DNA of 64,000 nucleotides from Cyclonatronum proteinivorum (GCF_003353065.1 NZ_CP027806.1:1815353-1879352), one strand, 5' to 3'. Shown: positions 38,823-56,856, numbered from the stretch's first letter. Numbers and translations: made by a program. Notes: generated by a model not told the origin, from the sequence alone.

Positions 38823-40109
38823 ATGAAAATCCAGAAAGTATTATTGCTCTTGCCGGCCCTGATATTAGGGTTTGCAGCGATCTTTAGCGGGCTTCATGCG
38901 CGTCAGGTCGACACTACAAAAATTCATTCGGCCATTATGAATCCCGGAGAAGTAAGAGAAGGCATTCTGGTCTATGAAGATCCTTCCAGCGACTGGTACA
39001 TCTGGTCAGATCACCGCATTTACTGGGATGCTGCGGTGTATATGGGTGACAATTCGAATCAGGAAACCCTGCCAATGACCAACGGAGCCATGCTTCGCCG
39101 CGGCATTATTCAGTTCAAGGCTACCATGTACCGCGACTGGGAAGCTTACATCGATTTGAATGCTTCACAGGGAGATGCACTCACGCCGCGCGATATGTGG
39201 GTTGCGCGCCATTTTCGCGGGGATTTTCACAACTTCTTTATTCAGGCCGGTAACTTTAAGGAAGCAACCGGAATTGAGCGTCTCACAAGTTCCCGACTCA
39301 TCACCTTTATGGAGCGCGGCGGAGATGGCATTTTTGAAGACGGACGCCGTAAAGGACTTGCACTTACCTATTTCAACCCGCATATATGGGCACAGGCCGG
39401 AACCTGGGGGCAGGAAATTGATCAGCGTCGCTTCACACAGGATAACGAAGCCTGGGGTTTCAACGGGCGCGTAGCATATACTCCGATTCGTCAGGATCGT
39501 CGCATCGTGCATATCGGCGCATGGGCTTCCGTAAGGCCGCCTGATGCCGATAACAACAGCCGCGTACGTCTTCGCGGCCGCCCCGAAAGCCGCATCGCAA
39601 GCAACGATTCCCAGCGCTTCCTGAATACCGGTCAGATTTCGGACGTCAATAATTACACCCGCTACGGCCTTGAGCTCGGTACCGTACTCGGGCCGCTTCA
39701 GGTGCAGGGCGAATACAAAACCTTTAATGTGAACCGGAAAAACGACCTGCCCAACCCATCCTTCTGGAGCGGTTATGTGAAGGCTTCCTATTTCATTACA
39801 GGTGAATCGCGTGGCTATTTTGCAGATGAAGGCGAATTCGGGAATTTTGACCACCCCCGTAATTCATGGGGGGCAGTACAGCTTGCCCTGAGGTACAGCC
39901 GCACCAATCTCAACGACGAAAGTGCCGGCATTATGGGCGGCGATCAGGAAATTATAACATTGGGGCTCAATTACTTCGCGACCCGCTACATACGGTTTTA
40001 CTTTAACTACGCTTTCGTACGCTCTGATGAAAATGCAAACGGCGCCGGCAGCCTGATCCCCTTTAATTACACATACTTCCAAACCCGAATGATGGTTCGA
40101 CTGCCCTGA
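38823..40109 (+). CDS. phosphate-selective porin (OprO/OprP family)
   Basis: A 428-residue outer-membrane porin. Signal peptide about 1-27 (ending HARQV). The mature part shows the OprO/P pattern: KATMYRDWEAYIDLNAS, WVARHFRGDFHNFFIQAGNFKEATGIERLTSSRLITFMERG, then regular amphipathic strands and a terminal strand FQTRMMVRLP. It starts 20 bp after pit and would bring phosphate or other anions across the outer membrane for the PiT and SLC13 transporters. Confidence 0.88.
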   Translation: MKIQKVLLLLPALILGFAAIFSGLHARQVDTTKIHSAIMNPGEVREGILVYEDPSSDWYIWSDHRIYWDAAVYMGDNSNQETLPMTNGAMLRRGIIQFKATMYRDWEAYIDLNASQGDALTPRDMWVARHFRGDFHNFFIQAGNFKEATGIERLTSSRLITFMERGGDGIFEDGRRKGLALTYFNPHIWAQAGTWGQEIDQRRFTQDNEAWGFNGRVAYTPIRQDRRIVHIGAWASVRPPDADNNSRVRLRGRPESRIASNDSQRFLNTGQISDVNNYTRYGLELGTVLGPLQVQGEYKTFNVNRKNDLPNPSFWSGYVKASYFITGESRGYFADEGEFGNFDHPRNSWGAVQLALRYSRTNLNDESAGIMGGDQEIITLGLNYFATRYIRFYFNYAFVRSDENANGAGSLIPFNYTYFQTRMMVRLP

Positions 40110-40165: not shown

Positions 40166-42028
40166 ATGAAATCCTTCAAATATGTAAGCCCGCTGCTGAT
40201 ACTGCTGCTTTTGCTCTCCTGCGTAGATACCAGCACAAACGTAACAGAACCCGATCCGGAGCCCGATCCCGATCCGCTTCCCGGCACCGAAGCCCTGGTT
40301 TACTTTTGGTTTTTTGGGGGGGATATCCCCAACAATGTCGAACTTGAACGCATCGACGCAAGCTTTCCCGCCGGAAATGAAGCCTTTCTGACCTTTACTT
40401 CCGCGCTCGACGGCTACCCGGAAACCGACCGCAAAGGCTCCATGGAACGCAGAAATGCTCCTACTGACCTGAATTACCGTCCGCAGGGTAACGGCGGGCG
40501 GGAGTATCAGGAAGGAGAAATGCGTGCCGTTCAGATCCGGGCGCCCTTTACCGGACCCAACGGGGAGAATACCATGATTTTCCATGCACCCGCTACCGGG
40601 TTTAAAGATCTGATATTTTCTTTTGCAGCTATGGATGAAGGTGCGGCTGAAGCTTTGGTTTTCGATTACAGCATTACCGGAACAGAAAACTGGACCAATG
40701 CCGGTCTTTCACAGCCTGTACAGACACTTGAAACAGACGCGTACCGCTTGTTCATTCTCGATTTGTCTGAAATTGAAGAAGCCAACGATAACCCGAATCT
40801 CAAAATAAGAGTCAGGTTCGACGGTCCGAATCTTGAAGACGACAACGGTACACGGGTAACTTTCAACAACATAGCCCTCGACGGGGTGTCTCTGAGTGAT
40901 TCACAGCCGACTGCACTGCGTATTACCGACATCAATAACGGGGAAGCAGTATTTGCCGGAGAGCCGTTTAGCATGCTCGTGCAAACCGTTGGAGAAGACG
41001 GCCGACCGGTTGAAGTTGACGCTGAAACAACTGTTTTTCTCACGCTTGCAACAGGAAGCGGCAGCCTTTCCGGCACCCTTGAAGGCGTTGTACCTGTCGA
41101 TGAAAGCACCGTGCGCATAGACGGCCTGCGCTATGACACGGCGGAAGACGGGGTCAGTATTGAAGCTGCATCAGGTGGTCTTGCCTCTGCGGTCTCCGGG
41201 ACGTTTGAGGTAGAAGGTCAAACCTTTTCCGTAAACTTATCGGTAAATCCGGTTGGTGCAGGCACGGTTGATGGGGCCGGCTCCTATGCAGCAGGTGAGC
41301 AGGTAACGATAAAAGCTATACCCAGTGCCGGCTTTGCTTTCCTGATCTGGACAGAGGGCGATGACGGCGATGTGTTCAGTACCGAGGCCGAACATACCTT
41401 CGAAATGCCGGAAAGGGATCTTGCTATCACCGCCAGCTTTATCGGGGAGGCCGAAGCCGAGACGATTGTACGCTGGACTTTTGATGATACGCTTGAACCC
41501 GCTGAAGGCAACGGAACAGCACAGCTTGCGGGAGGTACGGAAACCCATTCTCTCACCCTGGGTAGCGGCTGGCGCATAACGAATTTCCCGGAACAATTCA
41601 CGGCTTCGGCGACCGCAGGTGCGGAGTTTATGGCCTCTACCGCCGGATACGATGCTATACAGGTCAGCTTCGGGCAGCGGGCATCCGGCACCATGAGCCG
41701 CTGGGCTGAGTTTCAGTACACAACCGACGGCGGCACTTCCTGGCAGCGTTTCGGAGACAACGGCGGTGTTCTCTCCCCGCACGACACCGTTGCCGATAAT
41801 CTGCTTGATTTTGAAGCCATTCCGGAAGCCGCAGATAACCCGGGCTTTGGGCTGCGTATCGTTTCGGTTTTCTCGCCGGTTGCGTTTAATCCGGAAGAGC
41901 CGGATGAGGAATTTGCAGCCAATACCGCGTATCACCGTGCACGTACGGAGGGAACCGGCGGCGGTGCCTACTCAGGAGGCGGCAACTGGCGTCTGCTCGA
42001 TGTAACCATCACCGGCAAGCCCCGCTAA
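40166..42028 (+). CDS. multidomain surface lipoprotein with an InlB-type bacterial repeat
   Basis: A 620-residue lipoprotein: signal MKSFKYVSPLLILLLLLSC with C19, then a DPDPE linker. A beta-rich domain (about 45-250) is followed by an Ig-like domain (about 255-350), a bacterial repeat domain near 355-425 (NPVGAGTVDGAGSYAAGEQVTIKA, FLIWTEG) and a C-terminal jelly-roll-like domain (about 435-620). I see no catalytic motif. It follows the porin by 56 bp and may be part of the same transcript, perhaps binding a phosphorylated polymer outside the cell; that is a guess. Confidence 0.65.
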   Translation: MKSFKYVSPLLILLLLLSCVDTSTNVTEPDPEPDPDPLPGTEALVYFWFFGGDIPNNVELERIDASFPAGNEAFLTFTSALDGYPETDRKGSMERRNAPTDLNYRPQGNGGREYQEGEMRAVQIRAPFTGPNGENTMIFHAPATGFKDLIFSFAAMDEGAAEALVFDYSITGTENWTNAGLSQPVQTLETDAYRLFILDLSEIEEANDNPNLKIRVRFDGPNLEDDNGTRVTFNNIALDGVSLSDSQPTALRITDINNGEAVFAGEPFSMLVQTVGEDGRPVEVDAETTVFLTLATGSGSLSGTLEGVVPVDESTVRIDGLRYDTAEDGVSIEAASGGLASAVSGTFEVEGQTFSVNLSVNPVGAGTVDGAGSYAAGEQVTIKAIPSAGFAFLIWTEGDDGDVFSTEAEHTFEMPERDLAITASFIGEAEAETIVRWTFDDTLEPAEGNGTAQLAGGTETHSLTLGSGWRITNFPEQFTASATAGAEFMASTAGYDAIQVSFGQRASGTMSRWAEFQYTTDGGTSWQRFGDNGGVLSPHDTVADNLLDFEAIPEAADNPGFGLRIVSVFSPVAFNPEEPDEEFAANTAYHRARTEGTGGGAYSGGGNWRLLDVTITGKPR

Positions 42029-42516: not shown

Positions 42517-43578
42517 ATGAAATTGATAGTCAAAAACGCAGCACTTCCTTTGATTTTTTTGCTGGTGCTCTTTTGCTTTGCGGATGAAGCTGCTGCGATG
42601 CCGTCGGAATCAGATGGTCCCGGAGAAGAGCCCCTGGCAGAAGAGCTCAGGGCAAGGTTTAAGGGAGAATCTTTCAGTTTGGGTATTCTGTTGCAAACGC
42701 AGGGCTTTTTCTCGTTTCGCGACAACGATTTTATCGGGGGGAGGAGCTGGGATCTGGGGTCAACGCGCATTGACTTCCGCGGCACGGTTGACCGTAATTT
42801 CACCTACAGGGTGCGTGTGTATTACCTGAGTCAGCAGCAAAGCATTGATGCGCGGGTCGGATACTGGTTTAATGCAGATACGGAGATCGTTGCAGGTGCC
42901 TTCAAACCTTTTCTGAGCCGTGAGCTTGACCCAAGCCCCGGGCGCACAGATTTTGTAAGAAGGGCCCGCTTTGTGGGCGCAATGATGAACAGCCTGGAAG
43001 TCGGAACGAGCCTTTTGGGTAAAACCGGACCCCTAAACTACCGGTTTGGAATTTACAATGGTACCGGGGTGCAGGGTATGCGGGGTAACACCGATAACCG
43101 CTTTCTCTACACCGGCAGAGTCTTTGGCAGCGTGCCGGTTAACGGTCATTCGCTTATAATGGGCCTCAGTGCTGCGTTAAATCAGTCGCCGGATGCGAGG
43201 GTTGGCAACTCAGGCCTTACAAGCAAAGGCGACCGCTATTTTTACGGGGGCTATCTCGATTATCGGGCGGACACTTTTTTTGTGTCAACGGAATGGGTCC
43301 AAACTTTTTTTGACGCTGTGGAATACGGCAATAACAGGGAAACAATCACGGGATTTCATGCAACGGCAGGGTTCAGGGTCGGACCCCGGCACGAACTGCT
43401 TGCCCGCTATGATTATCTTGATTTCAGGCTGATTCCTGATGCCCGTGACCGCTTCCTTGCCGGTCTGAACTACTATCCGAGCAGCCTGATAACCTTTCGC
43501 CTGAATGCCATCGTTGAACCGGACCGCAGGGCCGGAACACAAACCGGTGTTGCCGCGGTCTTTCAATATATGTTTTAG
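42517..43578 (+). CDS. second phosphate-selective porin-like protein
   Basis: A 353-residue outer-membrane protein with a signal peptide (about 1-27, ending AAAMP). It shows the OprO/P-type blocks STRIDFRGTVDRNFTYRVRVYY, ADTEIVAGAFKPFLSRELDPS and RFVGAMMNSLEVG, then strands ending VAAVFQYMF with the terminal aromatic residue needed for barrel assembly. It is separated from the phosphate genes by the repeat and has its own leader. Substrate could be phosphate or another anion. Confidence 0.8.
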   Translation: MKLIVKNAALPLIFLLVLFCFADEAAAMPSESDGPGEEPLAEELRARFKGESFSLGILLQTQGFFSFRDNDFIGGRSWDLGSTRIDFRGTVDRNFTYRVRVYYLSQQQSIDARVGYWFNADTEIVAGAFKPFLSRELDPSPGRTDFVRRARFVGAMMNSLEVGTSLLGKTGPLNYRFGIYNGTGVQGMRGNTDNRFLYTGRVFGSVPVNGHSLIMGLSAALNQSPDARVGNSGLTSKGDRYFYGGYLDYRADTFFVSTEWVQTFFDAVEYGNNRETITGFHATAGFRVGPRHELLARYDYLDFRLIPDARDRFLAGLNYYPSSLITFRLNAIVEPDRRAGTQTGVAAVFQYMF

Positions 43579-44035: not shown

Positions 44036-47000
44036 ATGATCAGAACGAAACAGTTTATGATCCTCCTCAGCTTACTGCTAATGGCCTCGGTCAGCAGTTC
44101 GCTTGCGCAGGATCGCGTGCATGTACAGGAGGACGCTGACGGCTGGCGCCTTCTTGTTGACGGTGAACCTCTCATGGTAAATGGTATGAACTGGGATTAT
44201 TTCCCAATTGGTACCAATTACGAATATGATTTCTGGGGTCAGTCCGACCGCTTTATTAGAGATGCCTTAGATTATGAAATGCGCCTGCTCCAAAATATGG
44301 GCGTAAACTCAATTCGGGTTTACACTGGTATTACGCCTGAGTGGGTAACCTATATATATGATAACTACGGCATCTATACTATGCTTAACCACTCATTTGG
44401 CCGCTACGGCGTAATGCTTGAAGATGGCTGGATGGCAAATACCGAATATTCTGATCCCAGGGTGCAGGAACTGCTCCTTCGCGAGGTTACAGAAATGGTT
44501 CAGGAATTCCGCGGAACCCGCGGTCTCCTGTTGTACCTGCTCGGTAACGAAAACAATTACGGCCTTTTCTGGGGCGGTGCTGAAACAGAGGATATACCGG
44601 TTGTTGACAGGCAGTCAACGGTTCGTGCCCGTGCCATGTATGAATTGTTTAATGACGCAGCACTCGCAATGAAGGAATACGACACGGATCGTCCGATTGC
44701 CATGGCAAACGGTGATTTGTTGTTTATGGATCTTGTCGTTGAGTTTATGCCGGATATGGACATCTTTGGTGCCAATGTGTACCGCGGTGAAACTTTCACA
44801 GATTTGTACGATCGGGTAGCTGCCGAATACGGCAAGCCGGTACTCCTTACCGAGTTCGGTTCGGATGCTTTTAATGCCAGAACCAATCAGGAAGATCAGC
44901 TGATGCAGGCTCACTTCAAGCGCCTGAACTGGCTTGATATTTACCAGCACGCTGCAGGCATGGGTCGTGCACAAAACTCTATCGGTGGATATACTTTCCA
45001 GTGGAGTGATGGCTGGTGGAAATACGGTCAGACTGTTGATCTTGATGTACATAACACCAACGCTTCCTGGGCAAATGGTGGTTATTGGTGGGATTATGTG
45101 GAAGGTGAAAACAACATGAACGAAGAGTGGTTTGGTATCATGGCCAAAGGCCCGACGGATGCTATGGGACACTTCCGCCTCTTCCCACGTGCTGCTTACT
45201 ACGTTCTTCAGGAAGCCCACAAAATAGATGTTTATGCCCCCGGCATGAGCGCGGCAAGACTCGCTGAGATCTTCGAAGATATCAATATTATGGACGCCTA
45301 CCTGCGTGCACGTGGTGATACGGCAGCGCTGGAAGTAGATCGTCTGACCGGTATTCGTCTGAGTCGCTTCACAGCTGATTTCAAAACCTTCAACACAGGC
45401 GGAGATAAAATTACCACGCCGGAATCAGCCGACCCGAATGTGCGTCAGTTCCCTAATGAACAGGGTTTCGACCACATGCAGTCTTTCTATGTAGGTGTTG
45501 AAGCGCGCCCATCCAACGATGTACGTGCAGAAGTACAGTTCAACGTACTTGCGAATGTTGCCCAAAACCCGATTGATGAAATCTTCTACGAAAACCGCGG
45601 ACGTCAGCTTGAAGTCCTAACGCCTGAAGGCATTGCGACCCTGGAAGATGTTAACCGCGTGAAGGTTTACAATGCAAGCTTCGACTGGAATCACCGCTAT
45701 TTTGATCTCGAAGGTTTCTACCGCACCGGTCGCTACCATTGGGGCTATGAAGGCGATTTCTTCGGCCTGTACCCTGAAGCCAACTATGGCGATCAGATCG
45801 ATATCTACAACGGTATTGCGCCCTTTGGTTTTGAAATGGCAGGTCGCCGCGAATTTGACGGTTTCAAATTTGCTTTTGGTCCGCAGCTGTGGTGGGGTGC
45901 TAACCCGGCCTTCTTGCTGAAATACCGGCACCGTACAGGTCCCTGGGATATGGCAGCCATTTACCATGAAGACATTGCCACACAGGGCATGACAGAAAGC
46001 TCTTTTGCCGTACCGCAGCCCAAGACCCGTCGTGTAACCTTTGCAGCGACCCGTGATTTTGGTCCGCTGGAAGTACAGGGTGGTGTAATCTGGGCAGGTC
46101 AGCCGCTGAACGATCGTGAATTCCAGATCTACCGCAATGGTGAAATTTTCGTTGATCAGATCAATCCGGAAGACAACTGGGGCGGTAAGCTCAAGCTGAC
46201 CTATCAGGGCGGTAACTTCAACTGGTACGCGCAGTCTGCAGTTATGGGACTTGTAGCGCAGGGTGGTTACGATCAGACCATGACCTTTACAGGCTGGCAC
46301 CTGAAAGACAGCGGAAGCGGCAATCAGTACAACTTCCTCACCGGTTTTGCCTATCAGCTCGGTGATTTCCAGATCGCGCCCAACTTCCTGTGGCAGCAGC
46401 CGATCGAAGGCCCCATTCCTGCAGATGTAGCTGCACCGGGCCGTCCGAGAAACATTCTCGATGATCCGTTCTCTGTTCGTGCAAACCGCGAGACCGTAGC
46501 CGGTGAGCTTCTGATTACCTACGATCCGACGCCCGCTACCTACATGTTCGACTGGAACAACGACTACCGCGAAGATGCCCCGTTTGCAGCAAGTGTTGGT
46601 TTCATTTACCGTCACCATCCTACCACACAGGATGCGGCCATTGGTATCCTTCCTGACGGACGTACCGCGTTTGCCTTCCCCGGTGCACCACCTGCAAGAG
46701 ACCTTTGGGAAGCACATGCCCGTATCGTATCCCGTGTAAGCCCTGATCTGGGAATCATTGCACGTCTGTACGGTGGTGAAGCAGAAGCCAACGGAAGTGA
46801 CGACCGCCTGATCGAGCGTTTTGGTGGTGATCTTCGCGTGATTTACCGCAACATCATGCTCAACTCATTTGTGCGCGTAAATGACTGGGGTCCGTTTGAC
46901 TACCATCGTGACTTCAACCTTACCTTCCCGCTTCAGCTGATGGCCGACGTTTCGATGTCGCTTGGTGAGCAGGATTGGTTTGACATGCCGCGCACCCGCA

Positions 47001-47164
47001 TAGGTGTACGTGGTACCTATCGTACGCTTGATGAGTTCTCTCCACGCTATGCTCCTGCATTCATGGAAGACCCGAGCGGACAGATTGTACCAAACCCGGT
47101 TGCCCCAGGTTTTGGAAATGGTAATGAGTGGGAATTCAGAACCTACATCCAAATCAATATCTAA
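44036..47164 (+). CDS. secreted glycosidase fused to an outer-membrane beta-barrel
   Basis: A 1042-residue protein from ATG 44036, which begins a clear signal peptide (MIRTKQFMILLSLLLMASVSSSLAQ). Residues about 25-400 form a clan-A TIM barrel close to GH2/GH5 types: VNGMNWDY, VNSIRVYTG, acid/base E172 in LLGNENNYG and nucleophile E273 in VLLTEFGSDAF. From about residue 470 to the end (some 570 residues) the sequence changes to repeated amphipathic strands rich in Y, W, F and G (RYHWGYEGDFFGLYPEANYG, FKFAFGPQLWWGANPAF) and ends RTYIQINI, like an outer-membrane barrel. First gene of the glucan locus; the arrangement would feed its own product into its own pore. I know no named family with this fusion. 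Confidence 0.75.
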   Translation: MIRTKQFMILLSLLLMASVSSSLAQDRVHVQEDADGWRLLVDGEPLMVNGMNWDYFPIGTNYEYDFWGQSDRFIRDALDYEMRLLQNMGVNSIRVYTGITPEWVTYIYDNYGIYTMLNHSFGRYGVMLEDGWMANTEYSDPRVQELLLREVTEMVQEFRGTRGLLLYLLGNENNYGLFWGGAETEDIPVVDRQSTVRARAMYELFNDAALAMKEYDTDRPIAMANGDLLFMDLVVEFMPDMDIFGANVYRGETFTDLYDRVAAEYGKPVLLTEFGSDAFNARTNQEDQLMQAHFKRLNWLDIYQHAAGMGRAQNSIGGYTFQWSDGWWKYGQTVDLDVHNTNASWANGGYWWDYVEGENNMNEEWFGIMAKGPTDAMGHFRLFPRAAYYVLQEAHKIDVYAPGMSAARLAEIFEDINIMDAYLRARGDTAALEVDRLTGIRLSRFTADFKTFNTGGDKITTPESADPNVRQFPNEQGFDHMQSFYVGVEARPSNDVRAEVQFNVLANVAQNPIDEIFYENRGRQLEVLTPEGIATLEDVNRVKVYNASFDWNHRYFDLEGFYRTGRYHWGYEGDFFGLYPEANYGDQIDIYNGIAPFGFEMAGRREFDGFKFAFGPQLWWGANPAFLLKYRHRTGPWDMAAIYHEDIATQGMTESSFAVPQPKTRRVTFAATRDFGPLEVQGGVIWAGQPLNDREFQIYRNGEIFVDQINPEDNWGGKLKLTYQGGNFNWYAQSAVMGLVAQGGYDQTMTFTGWHLKDSGSGNQYNFLTGFAYQLGDFQIAPNFLWQQPIEGPIPADVAAPGRPRNILDDPFSVRANRETVAGELLITYDPTPATYMFDWNNDYREDAPFAASVGFIYRHHPTTQDAAIGILPDGRTAFAFPGAPPARDLWEAHARIVSRVSPDLGIIARLYGGEAEANGSDDRLIERFGGDLRVIYRNIMLNSFVRVNDWGPFDYHRDFNLTFPLQLMADVSMSLGEQDWFDMPRTRIGVRGTYRTLDEFSPRYAPAFMEDPSGQIVPNPVAPGFGNGNEWEFRTYIQINI

Positions 47165-47175
47165 GAAATTATTTA

Positions 47176-48621
47176 ATGGTTATGACCATGATGAAACAAG
47201 TAATAACACATTCCAAATATGCGCTTCTTGCAGCTTTGCTGTTGATGCTGGGCTTCAGCGCATGTGAACGATCCGTTGACGGACTTCCGGAGGCAGAGTT
47301 TAGCTCCAACCCGGAAGTATTTATTGACGGATTCAGCCCGGGACTGGAATATTTTCCTTTTGAAGGTTCTGTGCTAAATGCTTTCACAGTAGATACAGAG
47401 ACCTTCTTCGGAAACAGAGGCGCGTCTATGCGTTTTGATGTTCCTAATGTCGGCGATCCTGCCGGTGCGTTTGCCGGTGCTATTTTCCGTGATGATTTTG
47501 GCGGAAGAAACCTGACCTCCTATAATGCGCTCACCTTTTATGCGAAAGCAACAAGAGGCGGAACCATTAACGAAATTGGTTTCGGTCAGGATTTCCTCGG
47601 CAATGAATTCGAAGCTACCCAAAACAACCTGCAGCTTACCACCAACTGGCGGAAATACACCATCCCCATTCCTGATCCTTCAGTGCTTACCCAAAGCCGC
47701 GGCTTATTCTGGTACGCAGAGGGTCCTGAAAACGGTGAAGGGTATTCTTTCTGGATTGACGAGCTGAGATATGAGTTTGTAGAGGATATTGCTCAGCCCC
47801 GTCCTGCCATTCAGCAGGGTACGGATGCCTCTCAGATTCTGTTCATCGGTTCCGGTGCGCAGGTGACAGGGCTTACCTACACAGCAAATCTCGGTGACGG
47901 ACAGGATGTGACGGTCAGCGCAGCACCTGCGTATTTTGACTTTGCCAGCAGCAACACCAGTGTTGCAACGGTAAATGACGCTGGTCGCGTAACGGTAGTA
48001 GGCGAAGGGGAGGCGGTAATTACAGCCTCTCTCGCTGGTGTTGATGCTGCCGGTTCCCTGCGTGTTGAGTCCTTGGGTGAGTTCATTGCAGCACCAACCC
48101 CTGAGGAGCTCCCCGAAAATGTTATTTCAATTTTCAGTGATGTTCCCGGCTTCGACGATGTGCCGGTTGACTTCTACAATGGCTTTTACGAGCCATTCCA
48201 GACCACGACTTCAAATGACTTTGAAGTTGACGGCGACCGCGTACTGGCTTACGAAAACTTCAACTTCGTTGGAATTGAGTTCAATCAGAACGTCCCAACG
48301 ATTGATGCTTCAGAGATGACACACCTCTCACTGCATATCTTCCTGCCGGATACGGTTCCGCCTAACTCAGCTTTCAGGGCGCGTATCGTTAACAATCTTG
48401 GTGGTGCAGGCGGACCTGAGTCCTCGGCTTCGGCAACCGTCAGTAACAACACCGGACTTGTTTCAGGAGAATGGGTAAGAGTACTTGTACCGCTTACCGG
48501 CATGCCTGACAGATCGAACCTTGGACAGATCGTATTTGACTCAGATCAGGGCCCTGGCTTACAAGGGTCAACCATTTGGGTAGATAACATCTATCTGTTC
48601 AATGCGAATGCTGCAAACTAA
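47176..48621 (+). CDS. surface glycan-binding lipoprotein with CBM-like and BIG2 domains
   Basis: A 481-residue lipoprotein; start ATG 47176, 11 bp after the previous stop (other in-frame ATGs at 47182 and 47188). Lipobox LLMLGFSAC. Three parts: a jelly-roll CBM-like domain (about 30-210, with FYAKATRGGTINEIGFG and WIDELRYEF), a BIG2 Ig-like domain (about 225-300, ASSNTSVATVNDAGRVTVVGEGEAVITAS) and a second CBM-like domain (about 315-480, ending STIWVDNIYLFN). No catalytic residues. It most likely holds beta-glucan at the cell surface, taking the place of SusD/SusE-type binding proteins. Confidence 0.75.
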   Translation: MVMTMMKQVITHSKYALLAALLLMLGFSACERSVDGLPEAEFSSNPEVFIDGFSPGLEYFPFEGSVLNAFTVDTETFFGNRGASMRFDVPNVGDPAGAFAGAIFRDDFGGRNLTSYNALTFYAKATRGGTINEIGFGQDFLGNEFEATQNNLQLTTNWRKYTIPIPDPSVLTQSRGLFWYAEGPENGEGYSFWIDELRYEFVEDIAQPRPAIQQGTDASQILFIGSGAQVTGLTYTANLGDGQDVTVSAAPAYFDFASSNTSVATVNDAGRVTVVGEGEAVITASLAGVDAAGSLRVESLGEFIAAPTPEELPENVISIFSDVPGFDDVPVDFYNGFYEPFQTTTSNDFEVDGDRVLAYENFNFVGIEFNQNVPTIDASEMTHLSLHIFLPDTVPPNSAFRARIVNNLGGAGGPESSASATVSNNTGLVSGEWVRVLVPLTGMPDRSNLGQIVFDSDQGPGLQGSTIWVDNIYLFNANAAN

Positions 48622-48646: not shown

Positions 48647-49474
48647 ATGAAAACTACATTGTTCATTATAGGCGCATTTTGTATTGCTGCCCCCCTCTTT
48701 TGGGGGTGCAGCGATCAAAATGAACCTAAAGACAGGTTTACCAACCTGATTTGGCAGGATGAATTTGACGTTGATGGTGCTCCGAACCCGGAGAACTGGA
48801 TTTTTGATATTGGAACAGGAGCAGATCGCGGTATCCCCGGCTGGGGTAACAACGAGCTCCAATACTATACTGACCGACCTGAAAATGTGAAAGTTGAAGG
48901 CGGCATGCTGCATATTACGGCCAAGCGTGAAGACTTTGAAGGTTCAGCGTTTACTTCAGGCCGCATTCTCACACGCGGACTTTTTGATACAACCTTCGGG
49001 CGTTTTGAAGCAAGCATTAAACTCCCGTTCGGCCAGGGAATCTGGCCTGCATTCTGGCTTCTTGGGGAAGATGCTGACGGCACCATTATCTGGCCTCAGA
49101 TTGGCGAAATTGACATCATGGAATATGTTGGTCAGGAGCCACGGGTAATACACGGTAGTGTTCACGGTCCCGGCTATTCTGCAGGTAACGCTGTAACACA
49201 GACATACAGACTTTCCAGCGGTCGCTTCGATACGGACTTTTATGTTTTTGCCATTGAGTGGGGACCCGATTACATTGACTTTTTTGTCAATGACACCCTC
49301 TACAATACCATTACACCGGCTGATATCGGTGACAATGAGTGGGTTTTTAACGACAATACTTTCTATATCCTTCTAAATGTGGCTGTAGGCGGTACATTTG
49401 TTGGTCCGCCCAATCAAAACACACCGTTTCCGCAAACCATGCTGGTGGACTATGTGAGGGTCTACTCCAAATAA
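48647..49474 (+). CDS. GH16 endo-beta-1,3-glucanase (laminarinase) lipoprotein
   Basis: A 275-residue enzyme. Signal ends with a lipobox (APLFWGC, C21). The GH16 catalytic motif E-I-D-I-M-E is present: nucleophile E154, D156 and acid/base E159 in GEIDIMEYVG. Other GH16_3 features are WGNNELQYYT, GRFEASIKLPFGQGIWPAFWLL and the terminal MLVDYVRVYSK. The extra residue in ExDxxE and the overall sequence are typical of laminarinases. It follows the binding lipoprotein by 25 bp. Confidence 0.95.
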   Translation: MKTTLFIIGAFCIAAPLFWGCSDQNEPKDRFTNLIWQDEFDVDGAPNPENWIFDIGTGADRGIPGWGNNELQYYTDRPENVKVEGGMLHITAKREDFEGSAFTSGRILTRGLFDTTFGRFEASIKLPFGQGIWPAFWLLGEDADGTIIWPQIGEIDIMEYVGQEPRVIHGSVHGPGYSAGNAVTQTYRLSSGRFDTDFYVFAIEWGPDYIDFFVNDTLYNTITPADIGDNEWVFNDNTFYILLNVAVGGTFVGPPNQNTPFPQTMLVDYVRVYSK

Positions 49475-49540: not shown

Positions 49541-52500
49541 TTGTCAATCACAATAGCGCACATTCAGGAAGAACGCTGGTTCAAAATTGCTGACAGCGAT
49601 AGCCTAAGACCGTTTTTTATGAACATCGTAAGTGATTCCAATCACTGGATGTTTATTTCAAGTAACGGTGGCCTTACTGCAGGCCGGAAAAACAACGAGT
49701 ATTCGCTTTTCCCGTATTACACGGATGATAAAATTACCGAATCAGCTGATATCACAGGCAGCAAAACCATCCTTCAGGTAAAATCAGGCGAAAAGCTGCA
49801 TATATGGGAGCCGTTTTCGGAGCGTCAGGCCGGACTGTGGAAGGTCACGCGTAACCTGTACAAAAGCTTTAGCGGCAACAGAATTCTGTTCGAAGAAATC
49901 AATCATGACCTGAACCTTTGCTTCAGGTATCAGTGGAATTCAAGCAATCTGTATGGCTTTGTCCGCAAAAGCGAGCTCATCAATTTATCCGAAGAAGCCT
50001 GCACAGTTAACATCGTAGATGGTATTCAGAACATTCTGCCGTACGGTGTTGAGCCTGATACGCAAACCAAATCGAGCAATCTTGTTGATGCCTACAAGCG
50101 CAGTGAAATTGTGTCAGGATCAAATGTTGGCATTTTTGCACTAAGTGCTATTATTGTTGATAAGGCAGAGCCCAGCGAAGCGCTGAAAGCGAATGTGGCT
50201 TGGTCACTCGGGTTTGAAAACCCGCTTTGCCTTGCGTCTTCACTGCAGCTTGATACATTCAGAAGCGGCAGACAGCTCAAAGCCGAAGATGACATCAAGG
50301 GCGAGAAAGGCGCTTACTTCCTCAACGGCGAATTCACCCTTGCCCCGGAAGAGCAGAAAAACTGGAAAATCATTGCCAATGTAAATCAGAACTACGCGCA
50401 GGTTGTGGCGCTCAATCAGGCGATTGCTGAAGATGACGCCCTTGAGTCCAAAATCGAGGAAGACATCAAGCGCGGTACACAACGCCTGCGTGCCCTCGTA
50501 GCGGGTTCTGATGGTTTGAGATTAAGCGAAGACTACCTCAAAGATGCCCGTCACTTTTCCAATGTACTCTTCAACATTATGCGGGGCGGCACCTTCGATC
50601 ACAATTATCAGATCGAGCGCGGAGACCTCAGCCGCTACCTCCAAAATGCCAGCAAAGCCGTCTTCCGTAAGCACGAAGATAAACTTGCAGCCCTCCCTGA
50701 AGTATTCGAAAAGGAAAAGGTCGATACACTCATAGCTGAAAGCAGCGACCCTGATTTGAACCGTTTGCTCTGCGAATACCTGCCGCTCAAATTCAGCCGC
50801 CGTCATGGCGATCCGAGCAGGCCCTGGAACTACTTTTCCATCAACACGCACAGCGAGCTCGACGGATCCAAGATTCTGGACTATCAGGGCAACTGGCGCG
50901 ATATTTTCCAGAACTGGGAAGCCCTTGTTCATGCCTATCCGAATTTCATTGAAGGCATGATTTTCAAGTTTCTGAATACTTCAACCTTCGACGGATACAA
51001 CCCTTACCGGGTGACCAAAGACGGCTTCGACTGGGAAACCATCGAGCCCGACAATCCATGGTCGTATATCGGCTACTGGGGTGATCATCAGATCATTTAT
51101 CTCCTCAAATTTCTGGAGTTTTACAACAGCCGTCAGGAAAACGGATTTGACGGCTTTTTCAATCAGGATACCTTCGTGTATGCGCATGTGCCGTACCGGA
51201 TTAAGTCCTATGAAAACATCGCAGAAGACCCGAAAAATACCATCGATTTTGATGATGATGCTGATTTGGCAATCCGTAAAGCAGTTGTGGAAGAAGGCGC
51301 AGATGGCGCATTGCTTCGCAACAGCAGCGGGGATATTCACCGGGTCAACTTCCTCGAAAAGATTCTGGCTACAACCCTGGCCAAAATTTCCAACCTGATA
51401 CCCGAGGCGGGGATCTGGATGAATACGCAGCGTCCCGAGTGGAATGACGCTAACAACGCACTTGTGGGCAATGGCGTCTCAATGGTTACGCTGTATTACC
51501 TGCGCCGTTTTCTCTATTTCTTTGAAGGCGTGTTTGAAAGCAGCAAAATGCAAGAGGCAGCCGTATCCGAAGAGATGGCTGAGTTCTTCCGTGCTGTAGC
51601 CGAAGTCCTGGATTCAAACAAGGGTATTCTGGACGGCCCGGTCAATGATGCTATCCGCCTTGAAATTACAGAAGCCCTCGGCAAGGCCGGAAGCGCATAC
51701 CGCCTCAAGGTGTACGAGAAGGGATTCAGCGGAAGCAAAGAAACCATCACCCGTGATGAGATTGCTGCATTCACAAAAACGGCGCGTCTTTACATGGAAC
51801 ATGCCATCCGTGCCAACCGCCGCGACGACAAGCTTTATCACGCGTACAATATCATCACCCTTGATGAAAACGGCATTTCAGTAGGTCATCTGGATGAAAT
51901 GCTTGAAGGACAGGTCGCGGTACTCAGCTCAGGCTATCTGAGCCCGGCAGAAAGCGTGGAAGTCCTCGACGCCATGCGTAAAAGTGCGCTCTATCGTGCG
52001 GATCAGAACAGCTACATGCTGTATCCCAACAAGCAGCTGCCGCGCTTCCTGGAGAAAAACATCATCCCGAACGAGCTGATTGAATCTTCCCCGCTACTGC
52101 AGAAACTTCTTGAAGACGGAAATCTGCAGATTGTGAACCGGGATATCCTGGGCGGGGTGCATTTCAATGGCAGTTTCCGCAATGCAGCCGATGTTAAAGA
52201 AGCGCTCGAAAATATGGCAGACGGTCCCTATGCCTCGCTTGTCGCCGCTGACGGCGCAACGGTTTTGCAGGTGTTTGAGCAGGTGTTCAACCACAAAGCC
52301 TTCACGGGCCGCTCAGGTACCTTCTTCGCCTATGAGGGGCTTGGTTCCATCTACTGGCACATGGTATCAAAACTGTACCTTGCAGTAGGCGAGGTTTGTG
52401 AGCAGGCGGCAACAGCTAACGAAAGTGCTGCGCTGCAGGACAGGCTTGCCAAACATTTCTATGAAGTATTTGACGGCATAGGGGTTCATAAAACGCCGAA

Positions 52501-52954
52501 ACTGTACGGCGCTTTCCCAACCGATGCCTACTCTCACACCCCGTGGCACCGCGGTGCACAGCAGCCCGGTATGACAGGTCAGGTAAAAGAAGACCTTCTG
52601 GCGACACTCGGGGAACTTGGCGTGAAAGCAGAGGGAGGCGTGCTGACCTTCCAACCTAAGCTTCTGAGAAAATCTGAGTTTATGAAAGAAGCGCGGCTGT
52701 TTGATTTTGTTGATGTACATGCGCAAAAGCAGCAGCTGGAAGTTCCTGCCGGTGCAATGGTTTTCACCTACTGTCAGGTACCGGTGTGCTACCATCTTGC
52801 AGAGGCAGACAAGGTAGAGGTTAAGCTTGGGGACCGACGGACAGAAGTGTTTGAAGGCCTGGGCATGAATCAGCAAATGAGTCAGCTGGTGTTTAACCGT
52901 ACCGGCGAAGTGAAGCAGATCACGGTTCATCTCCGTGAATCACACCTTAAGTAA
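49541..52954 (+). CDS. probable GH149 beta-1,3-glucan phosphorylase (GH94-like)
   Basis: A 1137-residue cytoplasmic protein starting at TTG 49541 (the first ATG would remove 26 residues). It belongs to the cellobiose-phosphorylase-like superfamily: an N-terminal beta-sandwich (SNGGLTAGRKNNEYSLFPYYTDDKI), a helical linker and an (alpha/alpha)6 barrel with W-N-D at 634-636 (RPEWNDANNALVGNG); D636 matches the general acid of GH94. It is longer than GH94 (about 800) and fits GH149, which phosphorolyses beta-1,3-oligoglucans to glucose 1-phosphate. The neighbouring GH16 and GH17 genes support this. Family call is from length, motif and context. Confidence 0.75.
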   Translation: MSITIAHIQEERWFKIADSDSLRPFFMNIVSDSNHWMFISSNGGLTAGRKNNEYSLFPYYTDDKITESADITGSKTILQVKSGEKLHIWEPFSERQAGLWKVTRNLYKSFSGNRILFEEINHDLNLCFRYQWNSSNLYGFVRKSELINLSEEACTVNIVDGIQNILPYGVEPDTQTKSSNLVDAYKRSEIVSGSNVGIFALSAIIVDKAEPSEALKANVAWSLGFENPLCLASSLQLDTFRSGRQLKAEDDIKGEKGAYFLNGEFTLAPEEQKNWKIIANVNQNYAQVVALNQAIAEDDALESKIEEDIKRGTQRLRALVAGSDGLRLSEDYLKDARHFSNVLFNIMRGGTFDHNYQIERGDLSRYLQNASKAVFRKHEDKLAALPEVFEKEKVDTLIAESSDPDLNRLLCEYLPLKFSRRHGDPSRPWNYFSINTHSELDGSKILDYQGNWRDIFQNWEALVHAYPNFIEGMIFKFLNTSTFDGYNPYRVTKDGFDWETIEPDNPWSYIGYWGDHQIIYLLKFLEFYNSRQENGFDGFFNQDTFVYAHVPYRIKSYENIAEDPKNTIDFDDDADLAIRKAVVEEGADGALLRNSSGDIHRVNFLEKILATTLAKISNLIPEAGIWMNTQRPEWNDANNALVGNGVSMVTLYYLRRFLYFFEGVFESSKMQEAAVSEEMAEFFRAVAEVLDSNKGILDGPVNDAIRLEITEALGKAGSAYRLKVYEKGFSGSKETITRDEIAAFTKTARLYMEHAIRANRRDDKLYHAYNIITLDENGISVGHLDEMLEGQVAVLSSGYLSPAESVEVLDAMRKSALYRADQNSYMLYPNKQLPRFLEKNIIPNELIESSPLLQKLLEDGNLQIVNRDILGGVHFNGSFRNAADVKEALENMADGPYASLVAADGATVLQVFEQVFNHKAFTGRSGTFFAYEGLGSIYWHMVSKLYLAVGEVCEQAATANESAALQDRLAKHFYEVFDGIGVHKTPKLYGAFPTDAYSHTPWHRGAQQPGMTGQVKEDLLATLGELGVKAEGGVLTFQPKLLRKSEFMKEARLFDFVDVHAQKQQLEVPAGAMVFTYCQVPVCYHLAEADKVEVKLGDRRTEVFEGLGMNQQMSQLVFNRTGEVKQITVHLRESHLK

Positions 52955-52974
52955 ATCAATCTAATACATTGCTC

Positions 52975-54267
52975 ATGAAACAACTCCTTATCATCTTATC
53001 TGTAATAACCGCAGTTTTTCTTATGACCGCTTGCGCCTCCGAGCCCGAACATGATTTCTCCGGTATCACCATAACAGCCGCTGATATTCTGGGGAATCCT
53101 GAATATCAGGCTATTTCGTATGGCGGATACCGTGAAACAACCCGGGACATTCAGCCCACCCGGGAACAGCAAATCGAAGATATGCGCATACTCGAAGCGA
53201 TGGGCGTAAAGTTGCTTCGCACTTATAATGTGCATTATGATGAAGCTGCGAACTTGCTTGAAACCATCCGTGTGATGCGTGAAGAAGATCCGGATTTTGA
53301 AATGTACGTGATGCTCGGTGCATGGATTGATGCCAAAAATTCATGGACGGATGAGCCTGAGCGTATTCGCGATCAGGACGCTCCCCGCAATGCCGATGAA
53401 ATTGCACGTGCGGTTGAACTGGCGCAACAGTATCCGGAAATCGTAAAGATCATTGCAGTAGGTAATGAAGCTATGGTGCATTGGGCTACCGAATACTATG
53501 TGGAGCCTAAAATTATCCTAAACTGGGTTAACCATCTTCAGGATCTCAAAGCGCAGGGTGAATTGCCCGAGACCCTTTGGATTACATCCTCAGATGATTT
53601 CGCATCCTGGGGCGGTGGTGGTGAAGAGTACCACAATGAAGACCTGAATGAGCTGATCAGAGCGGTTGACTTCATCTCCATGCACACTTATCCCATGCAC
53701 AACACCCACTACAATCCGCAATTCTGGGGTGTCAGAGATAATGAAATTGGCCTCAGCGACAGTGAGAAAATCCACCTCGCAATGGATCGTGCCATGGCGC
53801 TTGCGATTCAGCATTATGATGACGTCGTAGCCTATATGCACAGCATAGGTGAAGACAAGCCCGTACACATCGGGGAAACCGGCTGGGCAACCATCTCCAA
53901 CGAATACTATGCGGAAGGCGGAGCCAATGCAATCGACGAGTACAAGTCAGCCCGCTTCTATCATGATATGCGCAACTGGAGCAACGAAAACAACATCTCC
54001 GTTTTCTACTTTGAAGCTTTTGACGAACCCTGGAAAGACGCGGGTAATCCGCTTGGATCTGAAAATCACTTCGGTCTCATCAATATTCAGGCAGAAGCAA
54101 AATTCATGCTTTGGGACCTTGTGGATGAAGGGGTATTTGAAGGCCTGACCCGCGACGGACAGCCCATTACCAAAACCTTTGGGGGCGATAAAGACGCCAT
54201 GATGGAAACAGTACTCGTGCCTCCAACAGACCGCGAAATTCAGGCGCGCCTTGCTGAGCGTGAGTAA
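52975..54267 (+). CDS. GH17 beta-1,3-glucanase lipoprotein
   Basis: A 430-residue enzyme from ATG 52975 with lipobox VFLMTAC. GH17 TIM barrel: acid/base E165 in AVGNEA and nucleophile E301 in HIGETGWAT; FYFEAFDEPWKD is the usual C-terminal GH17 motif. It cleaves beta-1,3-glucan chains or oligomers in the periplasm or at the surface. It follows the phosphorylase by 20 bp. Confidence 0.9.
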   Translation: MKQLLIILSVITAVFLMTACASEPEHDFSGITITAADILGNPEYQAISYGGYRETTRDIQPTREQQIEDMRILEAMGVKLLRTYNVHYDEAANLLETIRVMREEDPDFEMYVMLGAWIDAKNSWTDEPERIRDQDAPRNADEIARAVELAQQYPEIVKIIAVGNEAMVHWATEYYVEPKIILNWVNHLQDLKAQGELPETLWITSSDDFASWGGGGEEYHNEDLNELIRAVDFISMHTYPMHNTHYNPQFWGVRDNEIGLSDSEKIHLAMDRAMALAIQHYDDVVAYMHSIGEDKPVHIGETGWATISNEYYAEGGANAIDEYKSARFYHDMRNWSNENNISVFYFEAFDEPWKDAGNPLGSENHFGLINIQAEAKFMLWDLVDEGVFEGLTRDGQPITKTFGGDKDAMMETVLVPPTDREIQARLAERE

Positions 54268-54457: not shown

Positions 54458-55888
54458 ATGTCTGTAACTACGACTCCTGCGAAAGACAGGGTACCTTTTC
54501 TGGAAAAAGCGGCATTTGGCTCCGGACACCTGGTCAATAACCTGCTGCCAGGTGCTTTAGGCGTTTTCTCCTTCTTTCTGCTTACCGCTTTTGGGATGGA
54601 TCCCTTCCTCGCAGGTTTGCTTGGCGGCCTTCCCCGACTGTTTGACGCCATCACCGACCCTATTATGGGGTACATATCTGACAACACCAAATCCCGGTTT
54701 GGCCGTCGCCGCCCCTACATTTTTGTGGGCGCCATTTTAAGTGGCTTGCTGTTTATGCTGTTATGGCAGCTTGACCCCGATGCCTCGCAAATGTACAATT
54801 TCTGGTATTTCCTGATTTTCTCCTTGATTTACCTGATTGGAAATACCATGTTCTCAACCCCTCTGATCGGGTTGGGGTATGAAATGACCTTCGACTACAA
54901 CGAGCGTACCCGTCTGATGGGTTTTTCACAAGTTATTGGTCAGATTGCATGGATGATTGTACCTTGGTTCTGGGTACTTATTGCAAATCCTGATTTATTC
55001 GAAACACAGGCACAGGGGGTTCATCAGCTTGCTGTAATCGTAGGAATTGCGTGTATTGTGCTCGGAATCATGCCTGCATTGTTTTGTAAGGAAGTCGATC
55101 AGACAAACCTTGATAAGCGCGAGAAGATGACCATGGCATCCGTTTTGGAAAATCTGAAGGAGCTGATCAGGAATATGAAGCTAATTGCACAAAACAAGCC
55201 GTTTGCCCGCCTGTGTGGCTCGACCTTTCTGGTGTTTAACGGCTTTCAGATGGTAGCTTCCTTCAGTTACTTTATCATTGTGTTCCACATGTTCAACGGA
55301 GATTATGGCATGGCCGGAACATGGCCGGCATGGTTCTCTACCGTGAGTGCGCTGGCAACTGCATTTTTGATTATCCCGATTATCACCATGCTTGCCAACA
55401 AATACGGTAAGCGTAATGCCTTCATCATTTCAACCATCATTTCGATAGTGGGGTATCTCCTCAAGTGGTGGGGATTCAGCCCGGAAAACCCATGGCTTAT
55501 CTTTATGCCAATTCCCTTCATGGTATTCGGAATCGGCGGATTGTTTACCCTGATGATGAGTATGACCGCTGACGTTTGCGACTATGATGAGCTTCAGCAC
55601 GGAATGCCCCGGAAAGAAGGAAGCTTCGGCGCCATTTACTGGTGGATGGTTAAACTCGGCCAAGGCCTTGCACTCGTATTGGGTGGTCTCGTGCTTAAGG
55701 TTGTAGGTTTCGATCCAGCCCTTTCAGAGCAAACCGCACAAACCATGGTCAACTTAAGACTGGCAGATATTATCATTCCGTCGGTAACCGCAGCACTGGC
55801 CGTATGGGTTATGTGGGGTTATGATCTGAGCGAGGAAAGAGCAAGGGAAATTAAAGATCAGCTCGTTGCCCGCAGGGGTGAATTGTAA
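54458..55888 (+). CDS. GPH-family glycoside:cation symporter
   Basis: A 476-residue transporter with 12 predicted helices of the MelB-like GPH family. The cation-site segment FDAITDPIMGYISDNTKSRFGRRRPYI is characteristic, as is TADVCDYDELQHGMPRKEGSFGAIYWW between helices 10 and 11. In this locus it should import beta-glucan oligosaccharides from the periplasm for the cytoplasmic GH17 enzymes and the phosphorylase. Confidence 0.9.
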   Translation: MSVTTTPAKDRVPFLEKAAFGSGHLVNNLLPGALGVFSFFLLTAFGMDPFLAGLLGGLPRLFDAITDPIMGYISDNTKSRFGRRRPYIFVGAILSGLLFMLLWQLDPDASQMYNFWYFLIFSLIYLIGNTMFSTPLIGLGYEMTFDYNERTRLMGFSQVIGQIAWMIVPWFWVLIANPDLFETQAQGVHQLAVIVGIACIVLGIMPALFCKEVDQTNLDKREKMTMASVLENLKELIRNMKLIAQNKPFARLCGSTFLVFNGFQMVASFSYFIIVFHMFNGDYGMAGTWPAWFSTVSALATAFLIIPIITMLANKYGKRNAFIISTIISIVGYLLKWWGFSPENPWLIFMPIPFMVFGIGGLFTLMMSMTADVCDYDELQHGMPRKEGSFGAIYWWMVKLGQGLALVLGGLVLKVVGFDPALSEQTAQTMVNLRLADIIIPSVTAALAVWVMWGYDLSEERAREIKDQLVARRGEL

Positions 55889-55944: not shown

Positions 55945-56856
55945 ATGTCATTCAGAAAAGAAAGATTTCTTAGCTATGCAGGAGTAGGCTCCAACGATAA
56001 AACAAGTTACCTGCAGAACCTCTCCGCTGATGAGCTCGATAGCCTGTTTATGGAGATCATGCAAAACGGGATTCACGGCTTGTGCTTCAGTCTTTATGAA
56101 GATGGTCAGAAGCCGGGAGATCACATCAGTGAAGCCCAAATTCGCCGCCGCATTGAAATAATCAAGCCCTATGCAAAATGGGTACGCTCTTTTTCATGTA
56201 TCGAAGGCAATGAGTTTATCCCTATTGTTGCGAAAGAGCATGGCATGAAAACCCTTGTTGGGGCCTGGCTCGGACACGATGAAGAAAAAAACCGTGAAGA
56301 AATCGACGCCCTTATTAAGCTCGGCAAAGAAGGCAAAGTTGATGTTGCTGCGGTAGGCAATGAAGTTCTGTACCGTAAAGACCTCAACCTCGAAGAACTG
56401 CTTGGTTATATGCGCGAAGTGAAAGAAGCGCTGCCGGATATCCCCGTAGGCTATGTTGACGCCTATTATGAATTCGTACGTCGTCCGGAACTCACAGACA
56501 TGTGTGACCTCATTCTTTGTAATTGCTACCCTTACTGGGAAGGAACCGCTATCGAGCATAGCTTCGGACACATGCGTCACATGTTTGATCTTTGTGTACA
56601 TGCCGGAAATGGCAAGCGCATCTTGATAACAGAGACCGGATGGCCAAGTCAGGGGGAAGGTCTCGGAGGCGCAATGCCATCCAGAGAAAATGCGATGAAG
56701 TATTTCATCAATACACAGCTTTGGGCCAATGATAATGATGTAGAAGTTTTCTACTTCTCATCCTTTGATGAGTCCTGGAAGGTTGGCGCGGAAGGAGAAG
56801 TCGGCGCGTACTGGGGGCTGTGGGACAAGCATGAGAAACTTAAATACGGCGCATGA
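55945..56856 (+). CDS. cytoplasmic GH17 glycosidase (first)
   Basis: A 303-residue GH17 enzyme without a signal peptide. Acid/base E140 in AVGNEV and nucleophile E230 in TETGWPSQG; FYFSSFDESWK near the end. It starts 56 bp after the symporter gene and overlaps the next GH17 gene by 4 bp. Likely trims imported oligosaccharides. Confidence 0.88.
   Translation: MSFRKERFLSYAGVGSNDKTSYLQNLSADELDSLFMEIMQNGIHGLCFSLYEDGQKPGDHISEAQIRRRIEIIKPYAKWVRSFSCIEGNEFIPIVAKEHGMKTLVGAWLGHDEEKNREEIDALIKLGKEGKVDVAAVGNEVLYRKDLNLEELLGYMREVKEALPDIPVGYVDAYYEFVRRPELTDMCDLILCNCYPYWEGTAIEHSFGHMRHMFDLCVHAGNGKRILITETGWPSQGEGLGGAMPSRENAMKYFINTQLWANDNDVEVFYFSSFDESWKVGAEGEVGAYWGLWDKHEKLKYGA

Follow-up and report, generated by a model that had tools for sequence, protein, structure and literature searches.

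How might laminarin-type glucan be taken across the outer membrane by a locus in which a glycosidase is joined to what appears to be an outer-membrane beta-barrel, and in which no SusC/SusD pair lies nearby? Laminarin is one of Earth's largest carbon flows, and its uptake in Bacteroidota is credited to SusC/SusD. The locus considered here lies in a stretch of 64,000 nucleotides from Cyclonatronum proteinivorum (GCF_003353065.1, NZ_CP027806.1:1815353-1879352; the window). No susC-susD pair was detected by Pfam among the large ORFs examined in this 64-kb window, and in that respect the locus is not a canonical PUL.

A glycoside hydrolase and a predicted barrel in one reading frame

The frame is uninterrupted from the ATG at 44036 to the stop at 47164 (1042 codons); an upstream in-frame TTG would lengthen the protein to 1081 aa, though alignments with homologous proteins begin at about residue 1–10. 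A gene-calling or assembly artefact is ruled out, as the same full-length frame occurs in hundreds of independent genomes. A reading made from the sequence alone had described one 1042-residue chain combining a glycosidase with outer-membrane-like strands, and the frame, the homologs and the structural models bear this out. One annotated copy was seen, and its product name is no more than "glycoside hydrolase family 2 TIM barrel-domain containing protein". The gene and its parts are as follows:

44036–47164, plus strand: gene for the fused glycoside hydrolase-barrel protein, 1042 aa (frame and full-length homologs)
44036–44107, plus strand: Sec (SPI) signal peptide, residues 1–24, ending ...SSLAQ, without a lipobox (sequence, alignment)
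44108–45235, plus strand: clan GH-A TIM-barrel glycoside hydrolase domain, GH158-like, residues 25–400 (Pfam, model, fold and profile matches)
44549–44551, plus strand: E172 in LLGNE, predicted acid/base (invariant in 65 homologs; aligns with BuGH158 E137)
44852–44854, plus strand: E273 in LTEFG, predicted nucleophile (invariant in 65 homologs; aligns with BuGH158 E220)
45236–45346, plus strand: helical linker, residues 401–437, with barrel strand 1 three residues on (DSSP on the model)
45356–47161, plus strand: predicted 24-strand outer-membrane beta-barrel, residues 441–1042 (models, fold matches, alternation, loop conservation)

A lipobox-like motif occurs in only 2 of 76 fused homologs. 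On the enzyme half, the only Pfam match is Glyco_hydro_2_C (2.4e-7); other GH-A profiles also match members of the family, including Glyco_hydro_72 (weakly, 12 of 39 members). The top Foldseek match of the full model is BuGH158, an endo-laminarinase of Bacteroides uniformis (5.1e-12), and a profile of the enzyme domain, compared with PDB sequences rather than CAZy models, matches BuGH158 (9.4e-8) and GH158(Pro) (3.4e-4), both over partial stretches. The clan GH-A signature is present and invariant, with an Asn preceding the acid/base Glu after strand 4 (N171-E172, aligned with BuGH158 N136-E137) and the nucleophile E273 on strand 7, so that the two glutamates singled out as catalytic by the sequence-only reading hold up. 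They align to crystal-chain positions 115 and 198, which are E137 and E220 if the chain is numbered 22 lower, by our own count; in BuGH158, mutation of N136, E137, or E220 abolishes activity (PMC7157763). The C-terminal Ig-like domain of the BuGH158 type is absent, residues 401–437 being helical and followed by the barrel. Judged by sequence and model, the domain is probably best described as GH158-like rather than as a proven GH158 member, with E172 and E273 as its predicted catalytic residues and beta-1,3-glucan as its likely substrate.

For the C-terminal half, a prediction with strand count had been proposed as a check. AlphaFold with 65 sequences gave a whole-chain model of middling confidence (mean pLDDT 78.8, pTM 0.62), and the C-terminal half alone (pLDDT 77.4, pTM 0.73) yielded the same 24 long strands. 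The best 50 PDB fold matches of this half are all outer-membrane barrels, with E-values down to 1.6e-8 and TM-scores of only 0.2–0.4, as would be expected if the strand number differs; the fold matches include AlgE, FepA-type receptors, MOMP, BtuB, and porins. In/out hydrophobicity alternation scored 1.72 across the barrel strands versus 1.08 ± 0.11 after shuffling within strands, with none of 2000 shuffles as high (strands of the enzyme half scored 0.92); this test is independent of model confidence, but the strand limits are taken from the model. The protein thus combines features of outer-membrane barrels: a signal peptide, an even number of amphipathic strands, and short turns alternating with long outer loops. 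C-terminal CBM or soluble beta-sandwich domains, the contrary outcome named in the sequence-only reading, are ruled out by both models and the PDB fold matches. An outer-membrane barrel, presumably closed, is the predicted fold, as far as the models reach; it may form an open, conducting pore, but the pore could be plugged.

No Pfam family matches the barrel in any of 65 members, and to this extent the earlier statement that no named family has this layout stands; a barrel profile searched against PDB sequences gave a chance match only (0.52). Three known classes were rejected. Against a SusC/TonB receptor, Pfam recognises neither a plug nor a barrel in the full protein and in the 65 barrel members, and 24 strands are predicted versus 22; the single stray NCBIfam match of this type scores 0.035. 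A type V autotransporter is contradicted by the lack of a Pfam Autotransporter match in the 65 members and by 24 strands versus 12. For the Omp85/PlpD type, in which a POTRA domain and a 16-strand Omp85 barrel are expected, there is no Pfam match and the strand number is wrong.

The barrel is as conserved as the enzyme (mean column identity 0.77 vs 0.78 in a 65-sequence alignment); only the signal peptide and the linker are variable, and the linker has the lowest conservation of any stretch past the signal peptide. The predicted long outer loops are conserved above the strands (0.79 vs 0.75), most of all at residues 563–596, 618–624, and 951–963 (0.94–0.99). Outer loops of porins are usually variable; such conservation, as seen in the alignment, would suit a fixed ligand or partner.

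The surrounding locus, its distribution, and SusC/SusD

Downstream of the fused gene lie the following genes, most of which recur in relatives; the frequencies refer to the 58 loci of relatives that span 15 kb or more:

47176–48621, plus strand: lipoprotein (LGFSACERSVDG); CBM30-like and Big_2 matches, both weak (directly follows the fused gene in all 58 loci)
48647–49474, plus strand: GH16 lipoprotein, predicted laminarinase (Pfam 3.2e-22; 57 of 58 loci)
49541–52954, plus strand: GH149 beta-1,3-glucan phosphorylase, no signal peptide seen (NCBIfam NF058639, 1710 bits vs a cut-off of 1150; 48 of 58 loci)
52969–54267, plus strand: GH17-like lipoprotein (LMTAC), under the Pfam cut-off (45 of 58 loci)
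54458–55888, plus strand: MFS_2 sugar permease, inner membrane (Pfam 3.3e-63; 45 of 58 loci)
55945–56856, plus strand: GH17, no signal peptide seen, likely cytoplasmic (Pfam 2.6e-11)
56853–57785, plus strand: another GH17-like protein, likely cytoplasmic, again with no signal peptide seen (GH17 score narrowly under the Pfam cut-off)
57856–60549, plus strand: likely regulator of 897 aa, C-terminal LuxR-type (GerE) match under cut-off (relatives in the vicinity of the fused gene at 24 of the 58 loci)

The gene next to the fused gene encodes a lipobox in 65 of 76 cases, mostly CERD or CERS, and its product in the window is a putative glycan-binding, SGBP-B-like lipoprotein. The GH16, GH149, and GH17 neighbours support the earlier suggestion of a glucan substrate, specifically a beta-glucan. 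The two GH17-type genes at 55945–57785 are different and lie in tandem with a 4-base overlap. Just upstream of the fused gene are two Porin_O_P family proteins (38823–40109 and 42517–43578, the nearer one a weak member at 1e-5) and a lipoprotein with an InlB-type repeat domain (40166–42028), a relative of which occurs in only one of the 58 loci.

Other proteins with the same domain pair had been proposed as worth seeking, and relatives are encoded by 577 stretches of public genomes. The best 80 of these match nearly the whole protein at 59–85% identity and come from Balneolota, Flavobacteriaceae, Weeksellaceae, Saprospiraceae, Chitinophagaceae, and Bacteroidales. Of 296 Bacteroidota genomes that are 90% complete or more, 29 contain the barrel and none contains it as a standalone protein: all 26 full-length barrels share a frame with the enzyme (1046–1084 aa), and the remaining three are a fused copy cut at its C-terminal end, a truncated frame (G263), and a fossil (G047). 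Relatives were found in two plasmid records and in no phage records. One of the plasmid-labelled records, NZ_OY725931.1 ("plasmid 29", 45.8 kb), is filed as Bacteroides finegoldii and resembles a chromosomal piece, with valyl-tRNA ligase and rpsA present; it encodes a regulator, the fused gene, a hypothetical protein, GH16, a fimbrillin family protein, another hypothetical protein, and BglX, without SusC/SusD. Since this record holds the fused gene, gut Bacteroides may possess the system. A 60% identical copy on a 5.8-kb contig (JAKLJF010000340.1) filed under a Thermoanaerobaculia (Acidobacteriota) bin is probably a binning error, possibly a transfer.

Balneolales, among other groups, have forms of the enzyme without the barrel, which are ~430–460 aa long and 54–68% identical (73% for the one in G047). 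In an enzyme-domain tree built by a quick method, 11 barrel-less forms from Balneolales group together (support 95) inside a supported set (98) with the window's fused relatives. In G047 a stop codon falls just before the barrel and is followed by a recognisable barrel remnant (1.9e-10), so the barrel was lost in this one case; the 65 residues past the stop (L197:3426–3620, contig 314) match barrel strands 1–2, and GH149 follows directly. Loss is likely, on the tree, for the Balneolales barrel-less group as well, and the forms in G271 and G324, on long branches, could be ancestral.

With SusC and SusD models built from the relatives' best matches (six each), a single fused locus out of 58 (L080; SusC 876 bits) was found to have a SusC-SusD pair within 10 kb; other traces amount to two weak SusC-like matches (L005, L070) and, at the edge of one locus (L012), a piece of SusD. 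In the window's genus, three genomes (G002, G003, G004) have the barrel-less enzyme in the order SusC-SusD-GH16-enzyme-GH149, with the G003 contig starting inside SusC, and in a fourth (G001) the genes SusC-SusD-GH16-GH149 share a contig with the barrel-less enzyme, at a distance of 13 kb. The barrel-less enzyme of G012 is accompanied by SusC/SusD within 15 kb. The barrel-less loci of G021, G026, G271, G324, and G047, half of the ten examinable, have no SusC/SusD in the 11–20 kb examined, which weakens a strict replacement of SusC/SusD by the barrel; an exchange of one for the other is suggestive in about two independent cases, counting relatedness. The window's genome has 26 matches to the SusC model. 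A SusC/SusD pair that lies 1.67 Mb from the window is the ortholog of those in the barrel-less loci and may be left over from a locus of that type. This pair (L198:15872–20000 with L199:1–496) is ~78% identical to the barrel-less-locus pairs and has no GH16, GH149, or enzyme beside it.

Position of the enzyme and proposed function of the fusion

Connections after odd-numbered barrel strands average 22.8 residues and those after even-numbered strands 5.1 (Mann-Whitney p = 1.3e-4). Outer-membrane barrels expose their long loops to the outside and have their short turns in the periplasm, and both ends of this barrel are predicted by the model to lie on the short-turn, periplasmic side. Because of this asymmetry, the N-terminal enzyme, with its linker three residues from strand 1, would be periplasmic unless translocated in the manner of an autotransporter. 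The idea in the sequence-only reading that the enzyme cuts glucan at the surface and passes the product straight in is therefore unsupported, as loop lengths place the enzyme in the periplasm by default. The N-terminal enzyme domain of PlpD was likewise once assumed to be surface-exposed and was found to be exclusively periplasmic (PMC11116518).

The reading we favour, with a probability of roughly 0.55, is that the fused protein imports beta-1,3-glucan across the outer membrane independently of SusCD and has an endoglucanase at its periplasmic mouth. At the surface, the SGBP-B-like lipoprotein and GH16 would catch and shorten laminarin-type glucan, and the pieces would cross through the 24-strand barrel, guided by its conserved long outer loops. 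Held at the periplasmic mouth, the GH158-like domain would cut the incoming pieces further, and cutting at the exit could make entry one-way without TonB energy, as a ratchet. The MFS_2 permease would then carry oligosaccharides to the cytoplasmic GH149 and GH17 enzymes. Crossing through the barrel, the substrate, and the ratchet are what we infer; what is observed is a conserved fusion, an OMP-like strand pattern, and a locus that usually has no SusC/SusD nearby. With the barrel as importer, the parts of the locus form a complete path from surface to cytoplasm. Several observations argue for this reading: the fusion is conserved, with the barrel never alone and as conserved as the enzyme; the locus matches the B. 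uniformis SusCD system except for SusC/SusD; and a SusC-SusD pair accompanies one of 58 fused loci, whereas such pairs lie beside the barrel-less enzymes of the window's genus. The OMP-like pattern, the conserved outer loops, the GH158-like fold with its catalytic pair, the loop asymmetry, and the B. finegoldii locus, in which the gene order is kept and SusC/SusD is likewise missing, point the same way. A broader proposal, that these proteins constitute a SusCD- and TonB-independent importer class spanning Bacteroidota, Balneolota, and gut Bacteroides, in which a glucanase fixed at the exit pulls glucan in by hydrolysis, is tentative and we would not yet bet on it.

The strongest competitor, though improbable on present evidence, is close to the sequence-only reading: the barrel, with BAM, would carry the glucanase to the surface as an autotransporter does, serving as anchor and perhaps as pore. 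Type V systems have the same layout, from a signal peptide through an N-terminal enzyme to a barrel at the C-terminus; the model has a 20-residue helix directly before strand 1; and BuGH158, a relative, works at the cell surface (PMC7157763). However, no Autotransporter or other OMP family matches any of the 65 members, 24 strands are predicted instead of 12, the barrel is bigger than the enzyme with outer loops more strongly constrained than an anchor requires, and the enzyme domain of the analogous PlpD is periplasmic (PMC11116518). The barrel-less homologs bear on both sides: a lipobox-like motif, found by pattern or by eye in at least 8 of 14, is consistent with surface export, and several look like lipoproteins, which could equally mean a surface enzyme, but others, such as those of G012, G021, G043, and G047, have a plain signal peptide.

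Less probable still is a scaffold, in which the barrel would mainly hold the SGBP-B-like lipoprotein and GH16 together in a complex at the surface and glucan would cross by a transporter encoded elsewhere in the genome. The barrel-SGBP-GH16 gene order is almost invariant, the outer loops, conserved as they are, could serve for docking, and the genome (G000) has SusC/SusD pairs elsewhere and the 26 SusC-model matches noted above. Yet 24 strands are large for a mere anchor when a lipid anchor is enough in barrel-less homologs, and the SusCD-less cluster of Cytophaga hutchinsonii needs its outer-membrane proteins for glucan use (PMC12016534). It is very unlikely that the TIM barrel is a transglycosylase acting on cell-made glucan, with the barrel exporting the product as AlgE does alginate: AlgE is among the top fold matches and Glyco_hydro_72 (glucanosyltransferase) matches 12 of 39 members weakly, but no glycosyltransferase or synthase was found among the surrounding genes examined, and GH149, GH16, GH17, and a sugar permease together form a set for breakdown (PMC5827456).

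Comparison with known systems

The laminarin system of B. uniformis comprises SusC, SusD, SGBP-B, GH16, GH158, and GH3 (PMC7157763). It shares with the fused locus a GH158-type enzyme, GH16, an SGBP-B-like lipoprotein, and a downstream glucosidase for laminarin, but has a separate TonB-dependent SusC with SusD and a separate surface GH158 with an Ig-like domain (PMC7157763); the fused locus has no nearby SusC/SusD and an unrelated-looking barrel fused to the enzyme. FbGH17b of Formosa (FORMB_24740), a GH17 fused to a membrane-spanning transport protein, likewise places a laminarin enzyme and a transporter in one chain, and was the only bacterial fusion of a transporter with a CAZyme known to its authors; it belongs to another GH family and is described without an outer-membrane beta-barrel, in contrast to the GH158-like enzyme and predicted outer-membrane barrel here (PMC6246565). 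PlpD of Pseudomonas aeruginosa has the same arrangement of N-terminal enzyme and C-terminal outer-membrane barrel, but its 16-strand barrel is of the Omp85 type, it has a POTRA domain, and its enzyme is lipase-like (PMC11116518).

Two SusCD-less locus types are also similar. The atypical PUL chu_1276–chu_1280 of C. hutchinsonii, whose outer-membrane proteins are required for cellulose use, is a glucan cluster without SusC/SusD that encodes outer-membrane barrel proteins, an SGBP-B-like binding protein, and an endoglucanase; it differs in that enzyme and barrel are described as products of separate genes and the substrate is cellulose, the barrels being compared by description only (PMC12016534). 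GH149 was noted earlier with GH16/GH17 in Bacteroidetes "CAZyme clusters" without susCD-like pairs (PMC5827456), and that account, so far as searched, mentions no fused barrel. Our results suggest that the fused barrel may supply the outer-membrane step of such clusters.

If transport is shown, the fusion would become a new importer class. Should this common fusion bring glucan across the outer membrane unaided by SusC/SusD, a class of glucan users would escape any PUL search that relies on those two genes. The fusion also makes it testable whether enzyme action at a pore exit can replace TonB energy and which side the N-terminal enzyme of an enzyme-barrel chain occupies. A description of a glycoside hydrolase-outer-membrane-barrel fusion was not found in the literature searched, a scope outside which most subscription journals and all preprints fall. 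Within that literature, the combination of a GH158-like enzyme with a barrel outside Pfam is undescribed and may be what is new here; its precedents exist singly, in the enzyme fold (BuGH158), the locus type (SusCD-less clusters), and the enzyme-barrel principle (PlpD).
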